Below are positions 4,681 to 15,358 of a stretch of 22,500 nt of DNA, one piece after another. How positions within the stretch are numbered: the first letter of the stretch is position 1; every line of letters starts with the position of its first letter. This stretch comes from a virus: positions 1-22,500 of IMG/VR virus record IMGVR_UViG_3300046007_005650; one strand, written 5' to 3'. The notes below the pieces were generated by a model. That model ran no database searches. It had not been told where the DNA came from and saw only the letters and a list, made by a program, of their open reading frames with translations. The position numbers and the translations under genes were made by a program.

Positions 4681-5574
4681 TTAATATTTTTTTAAATTGT
4701 TTAAAAATTCAACAAACTCATTGAAATTGCATTCCGCTTTTTCATTTTGCTGAATATGTCTTTCCATGCTTCTTGAAGCTACAGTAGTATTTGGATTAGC
4801 TGGGTAAGTTACCGGGCTAACATCGTAAACTTTATTAATCTTTGTAATCGTTCTTTTCATTCTCCCGTCCTTCATTTCCCATCTGTCACCATTTTCCATT
4901 AATGAAAAAGCAAAAGAAGATTGATAAATGTCACCTCTTTTAATTAGCTTCATTACATCTTCGGCTGCATGGGTTTCCGGGGGAAAAATATTATAAACCA
5001 ACGCGTTTCCATCTCTTTTTATAACTAAAGTATTGTTTTTAACTCTACCAAGCACGATATTTTGATCATGATTAAATAAAGCGGCTGCCTCTGAAAAATC
5101 AGCATCATTAAAGGCATCCATGTCTATTTCTTCATCAAAACTACCCATATCATAAGCTCTATTCAATGATGAAGCTATGCCAGTTATTTCCCTAGTTTCT
5201 ATATCGCTTTTAAATTCGATATTAAAATATCTTCTTTCCATTTGATTATTATTTGACCTGTCTTCCATAATTTTATTAGCTGTTTTTTCTGCCCAAGGTA
5301 ACATCGTTGAACCGCCCCAGGCATCATACATTATTGAGCCGCAAATTTCATTTTCATTCTCATCAAAATATTTGCCCTGGTCATAAACTTTTGCGCGACT
5401 TAAAAAACTAAAAGTTCTTATTACTTCATCGTCACTCAATGCTTCTCTATTTGCTAACTGCCTTGCTCTATTCCAACCAACAGATGTACCACACTTACTG
5501 CCATCATCTTCTTTATGTTTCAAAGCTTTCTTCGCTGCATTGCTTGCGGATTGAGGGTAAGTTTTATAAGGCAT
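4681..5574 (-). CDS. Prohead protease (HK97 family) with N-terminal extra domain
   Basis: 297 aa, a two-part protein. Residues 1 to about 100 form a domain seen in other phage proteins (pattern YPQSASNAAKKALKHK...GTSVGWNRARQLANREALS, then AWGGSTMLPWAEK). Residues ~115-290 are the serine protease that matures capsids (U35 type). Candidate catalytic residues are His169 in LFNHD, Ser220 in YQSSFAF and Asp250 in VYDVSPVTYPA. The C-terminal DVSPVTYPANPNT is the family signature. It lies between the portal and capsid genes, as expected. The extra domain makes it about 100 residues longer than a typical 180-200 aa protease. Confidence 0.9.
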   Translation of the reverse strand: MPYKTYPQSASNAAKKALKHKEDDGSKCGTSVGWNRARQLANREALSDDEVIRTFSFLSRAKVYDQGKYFDENENEICGSIMYDAWGGSTMLPWAEKTANKIMEDRSNNNQMERRYFNIEFKSDIETREITGIASSLNRAYDMGSFDEEIDMDAFNDADFSEAAALFNHDQNIVLGRVKNNTLVIKRDGNALVYNIFPPETHAAEDVMKLIKRGDIYQSSFAFSLMENGDRWEMKDGRMKRTITKINKVYDVSPVTYPANPNTTVASRSMERHIQQNEKAECNFNEFVEFLNNLKKY

Positions 5575-11631: not shown

Positions 11632-11753
11632 ACGACTTGTTTAAAGCCTCACTTGACAAAACACTCATTTACACCACGCCTGAAAAGTTGTTGGTATGGA
11701 TAAAATTAAAAAGTTTGACTGGGAATCCAGAGTTTAAAAGTAAAGCAAAATAA
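11628..11753 (+). CDS. 41-aa coupled small protein
   Basis: 41 aa: MNDLFKASLDKTLIYTTPEK, then LLVWIKLKSLTGNPEFKSKAK. The ATG overlaps the preceding TGA (ATGA at 11628-11631) and the stop lies 1 base before the next ATG (11755). It therefore fills the gap exactly between two genes, the strongest reason to think it is translated. It is basic at the C-terminus, with one amphipathic or hydrophobic helix (LLVWIKL). No family is recognised. Confidence 0.5.
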   Translation: MNDLFKASLDKTLIYTTPEKLLVWIKLKSLTGNPEFKSKAK

Positions 11754-11754
11754 T

Positions 11755-12174
11755 ATGAAAATTAACGAAAACGAATTTTGGAATGATGAAATACTAATTC
11801 ATCAAGGCAAATATGGAGAAGAACTTAAAATTGTAGATAAACACAAAGTTTTTCGTCATGAGATTACTTGGTATGATGCAAAAACTACAACAGTTGCGCA
11901 AGCTGTTAATTTGTCAAAATCTGAAGACGCATGGATAAGGCATGATATGCTGGATTTAATGTTATTAATAAAACATGAAGCCGATGATGAAGATGTTTTA
12001 CAGTATGCAAAAGGTTTATATATTGAAAGAGATAATATTCCAGAGCCTATTTATCAATTTAGATATTGTGATGAAACTAAGGATTATCGGTATGCGCCAC
12101 CAGAGGGAGAAATTATTGCCTTTTCATTAATTAATGATTTGCCGTTAATGAGAATATTTAATGAGGATGAATAA
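11755..12174 (+). CDS. Hypothetical acidic phage protein
   Basis: 139 aa, strongly acidic, not recognised. Visible parts are MKINENEFWNDEILIHQGKYGEEL, a central ITWYDAKTTTVAQAVNLSKSEDAWIRHDMLDLMLLIKHEADDEDVLQYAKG helix pair, a YQFRYCDETKDYRYAPPEGE turn and a hydrophobic LINDLPLMRIF end. The composition resembles small early phage proteins that bind host factors or mimic DNA, but no motif proves it. It is the last gene before the candidate RNA at 12204 and is coupled to the 41-aa gene by a 1-base gap. Confidence 0.6.
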   Translation: MKINENEFWNDEILIHQGKYGEELKIVDKHKVFRHEITWYDAKTTTVAQAVNLSKSEDAWIRHDMLDLMLLIKHEADDEDVLQYAKGLYIERDNIPEPIYQFRYCDETKDYRYAPPEGEIIAFSLINDLPLMRIFNEDE

Positions 12175-12191
12175 TTTGTAAGGAAATAGGT

Positions 12192-12199
12192 TATATTTG
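12192..12199 (+). promoter_or_regulatory. -7 promoter element of the candidate structured RNA
   Basis: TATATTTG exactly fits TAnnTTTG. With the usual distance to the start site, transcription would begin at about 12204-12206, the first base of the first hairpin. A TTTG is present at 12175-12178, but the 13-base gap is too short for a standard -33 element. Confidence 0.5.
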
Positions 12200-12203
12200 T
12201 AGA

Positions 12204-12303
12204 GTTCTTTAGATGGTGTGGAAGTCGCCTAAAGAATTTGGAACAAGTCCTACATTGTTTCACTTATGCCCAGCGTCTTCCACCGTTGGGCATTTCTTAT
12301 TTT
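12204..12303 (+). ncRNA. Candidate structured RNA with complementary hairpin loops
   Basis: Three hairpins occur in a row. P1: TTCTTTAG (12205-12212) with CTAAAGAA (12229-12236). P2: GGAACAA (12240-12246) with TTGTTTC (12255-12261), one G-U. P3: ATGCCCA (12266-12272) with TGGGCAT (12287-12293), followed by TTCTTATTTT, which is terminator-like. The loop of P1 holds GTGGAAGTCGC (12218-12228) and the loop of P3 holds GCGTCTTCCAC (12273-12283). These are complementary at 10 of 11 positions. Extra loop-closing pairs (GGTG/CGCC; GCG/CGT) would leave 7- and 8-base loops sharing a perfect 6-bp kiss. No known RNA family is recognised. It may be a free-standing RNA or the leader of the HNH-AP2 gene, whose ATG is at 12310. 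Confidence 0.6.
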
Positions 12304-12309
12304 ACAAAA

Positions 12310-12786
12310 ATGGCTAAAGAAATTCAGTTAACAAACCAAATATTTACAATAGTGGACGATGAAGATTTTGAGTATTTAAATCAATGGAAATGGTATTTAT
12401 TAAAATCTAAAACTAATTATTATGCAATAAGAACTAGTAGGCCTGAAAATAAATTAATACAATTACATAGAGTAGTAATTCAAGCCAAAAAAGGTGAAAT
12501 TGTTGACCATGTAAATAGAAATAAATTAGATAATAGAAAAAGTAATTTAAGAATATGTACTATATCTCAAAATAATCAAAATAGAAAAATTAATAAACTA
12601 AATAAGTCTGGATTTAATGGAGTTTCTTGGAATAGTAATAATAAAAAATGGGTTGCTCAAATAGCTTATAATAATAAAAAGGTACATATAGGATTTTTTA
12701 ACGACCCAATACAAGCCGCTAAAGCATTTAATGAAGCTGCTTTAAAATACCATGGGGAATTTGCAAATCTTAATAAAATAGACTAA
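12310..12786 (+). CDS. HNH endonuclease with AP2-like DNA-binding domain
   Basis: 158 aa from ATG 12310. An upstream in-frame start at 12238 would fall inside the RNA hairpins. The N-terminal half is a phage HNH_3-type nuclease: LHRVV (His53), then IVDHVNRNKLDNRKSNLRICT (Asp66-His67, Asn78). The C-terminal half, residues ~100-157, is AP2-like: SGFNGVSWNSNNKKWVAQI, then GFFNDPIQAAKAFNEAALKYHG. This pairing is usual in free-standing homing endonucleases of phages. The gene is very AT-rich with many AAT/AAA codons, unlike ssb or bet, which suits a mobile origin. It interrupts the early operon directly before the replication organiser. Confidence 0.85.
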   Translation: MAKEIQLTNQIFTIVDDEDFEYLNQWKWYLLKSKTNYYAIRTSRPENKLIQLHRVVIQAKKGEIVDHVNRNKLDNRKSNLRICTISQNNQNRKINKLNKSGFNGVSWNSNNKKWVAQIAYNNKKVHIGFFNDPIQAAKAFNEAALKYHGEFANLNKID

Positions 12787-12788
12787 TT

Positions 12789-13757
12789 ATGAAGAACTTA
12801 TTAATACAATTAAACCAACGTCCAATAGCGGTTTACCCTATCTACATAAAGATAACTGGAAGTGTGAACGCTGGATTATTGTTGAGCCAATTAATGTATT
12901 GGTACGGAGCAATGAATGGCAGAATGTTTTATAAAACTGATGCTGAAATAATGGAAGAAACTTGTCTTTCTGAAAGTGAACTAAGAACGGCAAAAAATAA
13001 ATTAAAGTCAATGTCATTTATAGAAATTAAAGCTAAAGGAGTTCCAGCAAAAACTTACTATTCTATAAATGCTGAAAAGTTGATTAGTGAAATTCACAAT
13101 TTCAGTTCCGTTAAATCAACAAAACTGAAAAAGCGAAATCAACAAAACTGTAATAGTGAAATTAACGAAACTATTACAGAGAGTACTACAGAGAATACAA
13201 CAAAGAATACTTCATATATTCTTTCTGAAAATTCAAAAGAATTTTCGCCCATCGAAATAAATGGAATTGAAATTAAGGAAAAAAAGAACGGTAAGGTTAA
13301 TCCTTTTCAACTTATATCTGAATTACAAAAAGAAGAAACAAAAGAAAGTTGCGCAAAAGAAAATAAAGAACGCAAGCCGAACCCAACCTACGAAGCATTT
13401 ACCGTTTTCTGCGAAACTTTCGAAAGATTATCAGGAGCAAATTATCCAAAAGATAAAAAGGGAAATTATATAATGAGTCCGAAAGAAGCTGGGGGTATGG
13501 TTTATCTTTTACGTTGGCTTGAAAAAGTTGACACTTATGGCAATACAATTGAAGCCCTTAAAGTATTTGTTAGGGCCGCTTGGAATTTAAACGACAAATG
13601 GATAAGGGCAAATTTTACTCCTAATACTTTATACGGGCAATTTTCAAAGATATTTACAGGGTATCAGACCAGTTCTCCAGAAATGATTGAAAAGAAAAAG
13701 AATGATCGGATCGCGGAACTTCTTGCTGAAAAGATGAAACAATACGAAAACCAATAA
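12789..13757 (+). CDS. Phage replication organiser with winged-helix domain
   Basis: 322 aa. Residues 1-95 form a winged helix of the kind found in phage replication initiators (Rep_O / DnaD-like): INAGLLLSQLMYWYG-like helix, then FYKTDAEIMEETCLSESELRTAKNKLKSMSFIEIKAKGVPAKTYYSIN, with the recognition helix in LSESELRTAKNKL and the wing at GVPAKTYY. The middle is Ser/Thr/Asn/Lys-rich and looks disordered (residues ~110-200). The C-terminal helical part (EAFTVFCETFERLSGANYP...LLRWLEKV...WIRANFTPNTLYGQFSKIF) resembles a second domain that could contact helicase or loader. It starts a four-gene operon ending at 14956. Confidence 0.75.
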   Translation: MKNLLIQLNQRPIAVYPIYIKITGSVNAGLLLSQLMYWYGAMNGRMFYKTDAEIMEETCLSESELRTAKNKLKSMSFIEIKAKGVPAKTYYSINAEKLISEIHNFSSVKSTKLKKRNQQNCNSEINETITESTTENTTKNTSYILSENSKEFSPIEINGIEIKEKKNGKVNPFQLISELQKEETKESCAKENKERKPNPTYEAFTVFCETFERLSGANYPKDKKGNYIMSPKEAGGMVYLLRWLEKVDTYGNTIEALKVFVRAAWNLNDKWIRANFTPNTLYGQFSKIFTGYQTSSPEMIEKKKNDRIAELLAEKMKQYENQ

Positions 13758-14218: not shown

Positions 14219-14956
14219 ATGAACAACTTACCAATGATTGCAAATCGGGTTGATGAGAAAATACAAGACGTTCAACTTGTTATCCAGAACCGAGAATTAA
14301 GGATATTTAAAACAGGAACTAAGGAAGCAATACCGAAAATTACCCACGTTTTAAATCAATTGTTACCGGTATATGGGATTGAGGTAAAACCCGACCAGTT
14401 AATGGAGCTGATAGATTTTGTAGCATCGTACAAATTGATTTCTGTTGATGAGATAAAACTGGCATTTGAGAAATTTGCTAAGGATGAGTTAAATTTGAAT
14501 GAGCATAAATTATACGGCAAAGTGGATCTTCATGCGATAGGGAAAATATTATCTTCCTACATAACTTGGAGGCAAAAAATATACTATGCCATTGATAGCG
14601 ATATTCAGGCAAAGAAAGAAGAAGAGGATAGGATTAAACGATTAGGCAAAGTAGCAGAAGATTACGATAAAGATTTTGATAATAAGCTAAAGAACTTTAA
14701 TAAGACTTTAGATGAAATACCTATCTTTTGGTATGATGAATGCGTGAAAAGGGGATATATTAAAGATTGGTTTTATGGAGAAAAAGAAGAGTTGTGGACT
14801 GAAGCACAGGAGATGGCAAGAAATGAAAAGCCTACTTCGGATAATTTGATAGAAAGAAAGATCCACATGAGAAAAATAGAAGATGGAAATATGCCTAGGG
14901 CCCGCGCACTGGCGTATAAATTAGCCGTATGGCGCAAAGTATTATTAAGAGATTAA
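14219..14956 (+). CDS. Replication-associated phage protein, unknown fold
   Basis: 245 aa from ATG 14219; a longer in-frame opening at 14153 overlaps the preceding gene and is less likely. The N-terminal half contains LINQLLPVYG-like and VKPDQLMELIDFVASYKLISVDEIKLAFEKFAKDELNLNEHKLYGKVDLHAIGKILSSYITWRQK, a helical layout common in Bacteroidetes phage and mobile-element proteins near replication genes. Residues ~135-165 are charged coiled-coil (AKKEEEDRIKRLGKVAEDYDKDF). The C-terminus is basic (RARALAYKLAVWRKVLLRD). Position after the replication organiser suggests a helper or helicase-loader-like role, which I cannot prove from the sequence. Confidence 0.6.
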   Translation: MNNLPMIANRVDEKIQDVQLVIQNRELRIFKTGTKEAIPKITHVLNQLLPVYGIEVKPDQLMELIDFVASYKLISVDEIKLAFEKFAKDELNLNEHKLYGKVDLHAIGKILSSYITWRQKIYYAIDSDIQAKKEEEDRIKRLGKVAEDYDKDFDNKLKNFNKTLDEIPIFWYDECVKRGYIKDWFYGEKEELWTEAQEMARNEKPTSDNLIERKIHMRKIEDGNMPRARALAYKLAVWRKVLLRD

Positions 14957-15305: not shown

Positions 15306-15329
15306 TTTTACGCTTAATAATTGTTTCAC

Positions 15330-15358
15330 AGGGCAGTCCCCCAGCTGCCCTATTTTTT
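15330..15358 (+). terminator. Intrinsic terminator after the 61-aa gene
   Basis: AGGGCAG (15330-15336) pairs perfectly with CTGCCCT (15345-15351) around an 8-base loop (TCCCCCAG), followed by A and six T. Confidence 0.85.

Follow-up and report, generated by a model that had tools for sequence, protein, structure and literature searches.

Organization of the locus

The window (the whole 22,500-nucleotide stretch of viral DNA analysed here) carries a predicted short RNA with three hairpins, followed closely by an HNH-AP2 endonuclease gene and a replication initiation gene. All of the following features lie on the + strand.

12192-12199, +, predicted -7 promoter element TATATTTG of the TAnnTTTG type (called from the sequence; fits the Bacteroidota -7 element)
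12204-12304, +, predicted RNA with +1 at 12204 and its 3' end within the T-rich tail (from the fold, promoter spacing and relatives)
12202-12239, +, hairpin P1 with loop UGGAAGU at 12219-12225 (from the fold; two-sided changes in 7/9 counted pairs)
12218-12224, +, kiss strand 1, GTGGAAG (complementary to 12277-12283; codes covary)
12240-12261, +, hairpin P2 (from the fold; stem pairing in relatives judged by eye)
12266-12293, +, hairpin P3, terminator-like, with loop UCUUCCAC at 12276-12283 (two-sided changes in 9/9 counted pairs)
12277-12283, +, kiss strand 2, CTTCCAC (complementary to kiss strand 1; codes covary)
12294-12304, +, T-rich tail TTTCTTATTTT, a broken T-run (most relatives have at least 6 T)
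12310-12786, +, HNH-AP2 endonuclease gene, an optional neighbour absent in relatives (Pfam HNH_3 passes its cut-off, AP2 falls below its own)
12789-13757, +, replication initiation O-like gene (PHROG 9773, E=5e-28; tblastn matches, some annotated O-like)
14219-14956, +, conserved downstream gene, the RNA-independent anchor for loci fetched by protein

A preliminary description of this DNA had predicted transcription from the first base of P1, and our reading of the promoter agrees. Because the Flavobacterium -7 element spans -12 to -5 (PMC6847099, the source of both the consensus and the spacing used here), TATATTTG places the predicted +1 at G12204, the base of P1. In aligned relatives, TAnnTTT[GA] was found upstream of P1 at a constant short spacing, and the predicted RNA is 91-101 nt long (median 97; the window member runs from 12204 to about 12300). 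The minimum free energy (MFE) fold of 12200-12309 contained the three hairpins described earlier, P1, P2 and P3, at -33.3 kcal/mol (z = -4.4), and none of 200 shuffles was equally stable. P3, which had been described as looking like a terminator, is the sole terminator-like site within 11700-12900, where 0.3 would be expected. Recomputation also reproduced the complementarity of the loop regions: GTGGAAGTCGC (12218-12228) and GCGTCTTCCAC (12273-12283) match at 10/11 positions, and the kiss in the MFE fold has 6 bp inside loops of 7 and 8 bases. A 7-bp kiss, 12218-12224 with 12277-12283, requires opening of the closing pair of P1. The claim that this is a new structured phage RNA also held, as Rfam 15 gave nothing above the gathering threshold in the window, nor any match close to it when E values up to 10 were allowed. 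No description of the kissing RNA was found in the open-access literature searched.

Relatives and their kiss codes

Pattern scans of viral contigs gave relatives, some of which had the kiss sequence of the window and some of which did not. One of them (L016) had the same 20-base P2 core as the window and the kiss GTAGAGC/GCTCTAC, and another (L003) carried the RNA in a different context. A scan based on P2, with no reference to the kiss, yielded about 40 further members and further codes, namely GTAGGAG/CTCCTAC, CTGGACA/TGTCCAG, GTGAAGG/CCTTCAC, GTGCAAG/CTTGCAC and GTGATAG/CTATCAC. A covariance model that included the P1 and P3 pairs and left out the kiss pairs recovered, in many phages, a second copy lying about 1.4-2.5 kb away from the first, and these copies had yet other codes. 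Altogether, close to 20 kiss sequences occurred among the relatives. Compensated single-step swaps were seen between near-identical RNAs (GTAGACA/CTAGACA in L074 and L100; GTTGAGG/GTAGAGG in L104 and L105). In divergent copies such as L041, the letters of the P2 stem differ and, judged by eye, its pairing is still possible. A test for accelerated (diversifying) evolution of the code gave no clear sign of it, the P3 stem diverging as much as the kiss. In L004 (3257-3346), L007, L009 and L012 the RNA lacks P2 and its P3 is longer; the L012 version stands before a primase-VapE gene.

Searches of 395 Bacteroidota genomes gave no match at E 0.001, and no homologous RNA matched in the named phages and plasmids searched. 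A first scan of genome contigs gave matches mostly outside Bacteroidota, none of which was established as a member of the family.

Covariation of the kissing loops

RNAalifold reported both-sided changes in 12/18 predicted P1/P3 pairs. Among 42 registered sequences, two-sided changes were found in 7/7 kiss pairs and in 23/25 pairs of the kiss, P1 and P3 together; these sequences came from a scan requiring complementarity, so their 100% pairing holds by construction, as does a count of 71/71 complementary. Because the figures from the registered set are circular, the case for the kiss rests on the second copies, the anchored loci and the covariance-model matches. Among the unfiltered second copies listed, all those having the features of the RNA were complementary over at least 7 bp. 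In loci anchored by a protein, a scan for a promoter plus two hairpins gave a bimodal distribution of complementarity, 0-5 or 7-10 with 6 never seen, in which the choice among terminator hairpins favours complementarity. The covariance model gave 71 matches scoring 50 bits or more, 41 of them unique, and all had 7-10 bp of cis complementarity; the model was built on rows of which 25 had been selected beforehand for complementarity, a filter that does not apply to second copies. Cross-pairings between RNAs of different code reached at least 7 bp in 13/1482 cases. A pattern search with a scrambled code gave 21 stretches, and 0/23 hits had both hairpins; equivalent searches with two real codes gave 92 stretches (both hairpins in 25/82 hits) and at least 120 stretches (both hairpins in 34/118 hits).

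The P1 and P3 loops thus always match perfectly while their letters vary between phages, which argues that the loop contact is real. On these comparisons, both the RNA and its kiss are almost certainly genuine. The covariance search over relatives that the preliminary description had proposed found that the kiss, P1 and P3 covary, and its judgement that the arrangement exceeds chance is borne out by their maintenance through compensatory change. A chance foldback is rejected by the covariation and by the scrambled-code control.

Genomic position and neighbouring genes

We examined loci that had been fetched by the conserved downstream protein and not by the RNA. Wherever such a locus had at least 3.1 kb upstream, the RNA was present (66/66, some of the contigs being near-duplicates); 64 cases were found by scan, and L102 and L146 by the covariance model. 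The next ATG lies 13-17 nt beyond P3 in 73/82 junctions. The gene that follows encodes a DNA methyltransferase, an HNH-helicase, an HNH-AP2 protein or a replication initiator, the initiators being of several dissimilar kinds.

The preliminary description had tied the RNA to the HNH-AP2 gene. The RNA does stand just before the HNH ATG (12310) in the window, but an HNH-AP2 gene comes next in only 12/77 distinct junctions, with classes defined by N-terminal sequence. The order in the window is RNA, HNH gene and initiator; in L066 the RNA directly precedes the same initiator and the HNH gene is missing. The proposal of an HNH-specific riboregulator or of a mobile- or homing-element RNA is therefore rejected, since the gene is absent in L066 and others and the RNA also precedes initiators, methyltransferases, a helicase and other genes. 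The constant feature is the place before replication-initiator, methyltransferase or helicase genes, not HNH. L002 is nearly identical to the window up to the HNH start, RNA included, and its HNH-AP2 gene (321-806) differs from that of the window (12310-12786), as if endonuclease genes had been exchanged at this site.

Two copies in many phages

Loci with two copies had two different codes in 48/48 cases, and cross-complementarity between the two copies was at most 4 bases in 15 distinct pairs. Matching codes were found in 0/19 distinct two-copy configurations versus about 1.6 expected; the pattern is suggestive of selection for different codes within one phage, but the difference is not significant. 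A search for a second full copy in the window found none. At 15320-15358 the window has ATTGTTTCAC and then a hairpin AGGGCAG-TCCCCCAG-CTGCCCT with T6, shortly before the ATG of a helicase-methylase gene (15380), and this segment resembles what might be left of a second copy. Full RNAs were present at similar helicase-methylase genes in L293, L307 and L342.

Diverged backbones with the same architecture

Pattern searches using two codes, GTGGAAG and GTAGGAG, also brought up diverged backbones, which we grouped by shared architecture and not by established homology. One group has a P1 of the form AATCATTTTTGAG-GTAGGAG-CCAAAAATGATT, a short P2 and a terminator P3, and stands before DnaD-like or initiator genes; it was weakly matched by the covariance model (L193, L200 and L207; E 0.0002-0.01). 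Other diverged backbones stand before a helicase-methylase gene. A further set is without the TAnnTTTG element and has, by eye, sigma-70-like promoters.

Proposed function as a terminating leader

We propose that transcription from 12204 would produce the P1-P2-P3 RNA of about 97 nt, which would end at P3 by default. The gap between P3 and the ATG is too short for a promoter, so the adjacent gene would need read-through or transcription from upstream; from this promoter it would be expressed only through read-through past P3. Because of this lack of room, we favour a terminating leader in which the coded kiss between P1 and P3 decides between termination and read-through, and thereby how much of the replication (and methylation) operon is expressed and when. 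As each RNA has a code of its own, feedback could also arise through pairing of the terminated RNA with nascent molecules of the same kind. This leader model as a whole is our best explanation, with a probability of roughly 0.5. Considering its parts, the RNA is probably the leader of the operon, and control of termination by the kiss is a tentative proposal, given slightly less than even odds. Structure, covariation and genomic position are observed; we infer the activity of promoter and terminator, the leader role, the direction of the effect and whether the RNA acts in cis or in trans.

The leader model draws on the covariation, the 66/66 anchored loci, the tight ATG spacing and the finding that diverged backbones also stand before replication genes. 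Several points speak against it: compact phage genomes alone could bring the ATG close, the gene might also be expressed by transcription that enters from further upstream, the T-run of the window is imperfect, P3 is strong alone so that the kiss might be merely structural, the kiss is not clearly evolving faster than the P3 stem, and a coaxial kiss within one molecule is marginal on geometric grounds.

The kiss may form in cis or between molecules. In a rough geometric model, 29-30 stacked levels span about 82 angstrom versus a reach of about 70-80 angstrom for linker plus P2, and a coaxial intramolecular kiss with all stems intact appears marginal but possible. If terminated copies recognised only nascent leaders of the same code, the RNA would be a self-addressed riboregulator exerting code-specific feedback on phage replication. 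We regard this extension as doubtful. If true, the feedback would amount to copy control or superinfection exclusion; nearly 20 codes would be in circulation, and many phages would run two circuits that do not match each other.

The RNA may be a riboregulator of whichever gene follows or an independent small RNA. The latter would be a stand-alone RNA acting on host or phage mRNA or protein, with the kiss as an internal tertiary contact and the downstream gene a bystander of genome packing. Its own promoter-like and terminator-like signals, the varying kinds of next gene and the rather conserved P2 and P1 stem fit this idea, but replication, methylation and helicase junctions are kept across diverged backbones with a tight ATG distance, and the exposed loops are taken up by the kiss and variable in sequence. 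We consider a stand-alone RNA unlikely.

Still less probable is control of translation, in which P3 and the kiss just 5' of the ATG would tune initiation on a read-through mRNA and the RNA would not be mainly a terminator. The near-constant distance from P3 to ATG, the tuning of initiation by structure near the start codon in Flavobacterium (PMC6847099) and the IsrK precedent discussed below point this way; the ATG itself, however, is not within the hairpins, and most relatives have a terminator-type T-run.

Least probable, by a small step, is self-assembly in the manner of phi29 pRNA or of GOLLD and ROOL, which are RNA-only complexes; closed dimers or rings would arise by kissing of each molecule's P1 loop with the P3 loop of its neighbour. 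Each molecule has two different, mutually complementary loops as in phi29 pRNA (PMC7357161), phage RNAs with intermolecular kissing loops are known (PMC12286853) and the modelled cis kiss is sterically marginal, but packaging genes are not associated, one phage has two copies with differing codes and the RNA is small.

Comparison with known systems

The partners in ColE1-type RNAI/RNAII, sense and antisense transcripts, have 7-base loop-loop complementarity of changeable specificity. The phage RNA likewise has a 7-base kiss with a changeable code; unlike RNAI/RNAII, it has both loops in a single molecule. The nearest precedents in logic are two phage-related RNAs. IsrK of the Salmonella prophage Gifsy-1 has its own promoter and gives a short terminated RNA and a read-through mRNA containing it; the long RNA is the trans target of the short one, and IsrK refolds the mRNA for translation of orf45/anrP (PMC4825925). 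The anatomy of the phage RNA (promoter, terminator, read-through) and its self-complementary code would be compatible with such a scheme, and the phage RNA has no Rfam match. P4 CI RNA is derived from a leader and has complementarity to segments of the transcript it comes from, and premature termination controls the replication genes (PMC4825925). It shares with our RNA the position upstream of replication genes and complementarity to its own leader. In contrast, CI RNA is processed and comes from a lysogenic satellite, whereas the phage RNA has its own terminator-like hairpin. Tyrosine integrase (PF00589) was found in 0/26 records, which may be incomplete, with control matches in 14/14 genomes; for this integrase type, its absence argues against classical lysogenic immunity. 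The phi29 pRNA likewise has two mutually complementary loops within each RNA, but its loop pairing is 4 bp (PMC7357161) versus at least 7 bp here, and it is part of a packaging motor, whereas the RNA described here has replication, methylation and helicase genes as neighbours.

These RNAs constitute a recurrent phage class outside Rfam, at a junction that may set replication, with a readable specificity code. They raise the question of whether private loop codes let phages time or restrain their replication and distinguish themselves from rivals, and the codes could be a natural source of RNA parts that do not match one another.

Other RNAs on the same contigs

The Rfam matches seen in relatives (tRNA in L066, Betaproteobacteria-1 in L188) were all outside the kissing RNA. 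The tRNA match, just above gathering, lies at 4852-4972 on the - strand, upstream of copy A. Betaproteobacteria-1 RNA (RF02932) was found in L188 (1726-1841), L237 (1-108) and L198 (4279-4361, just under the gathering score). These contigs also carry a sigma-70-type kissing RNA, which in L188 stands shortly upstream of the Betaproteobacteria-1 RNA.
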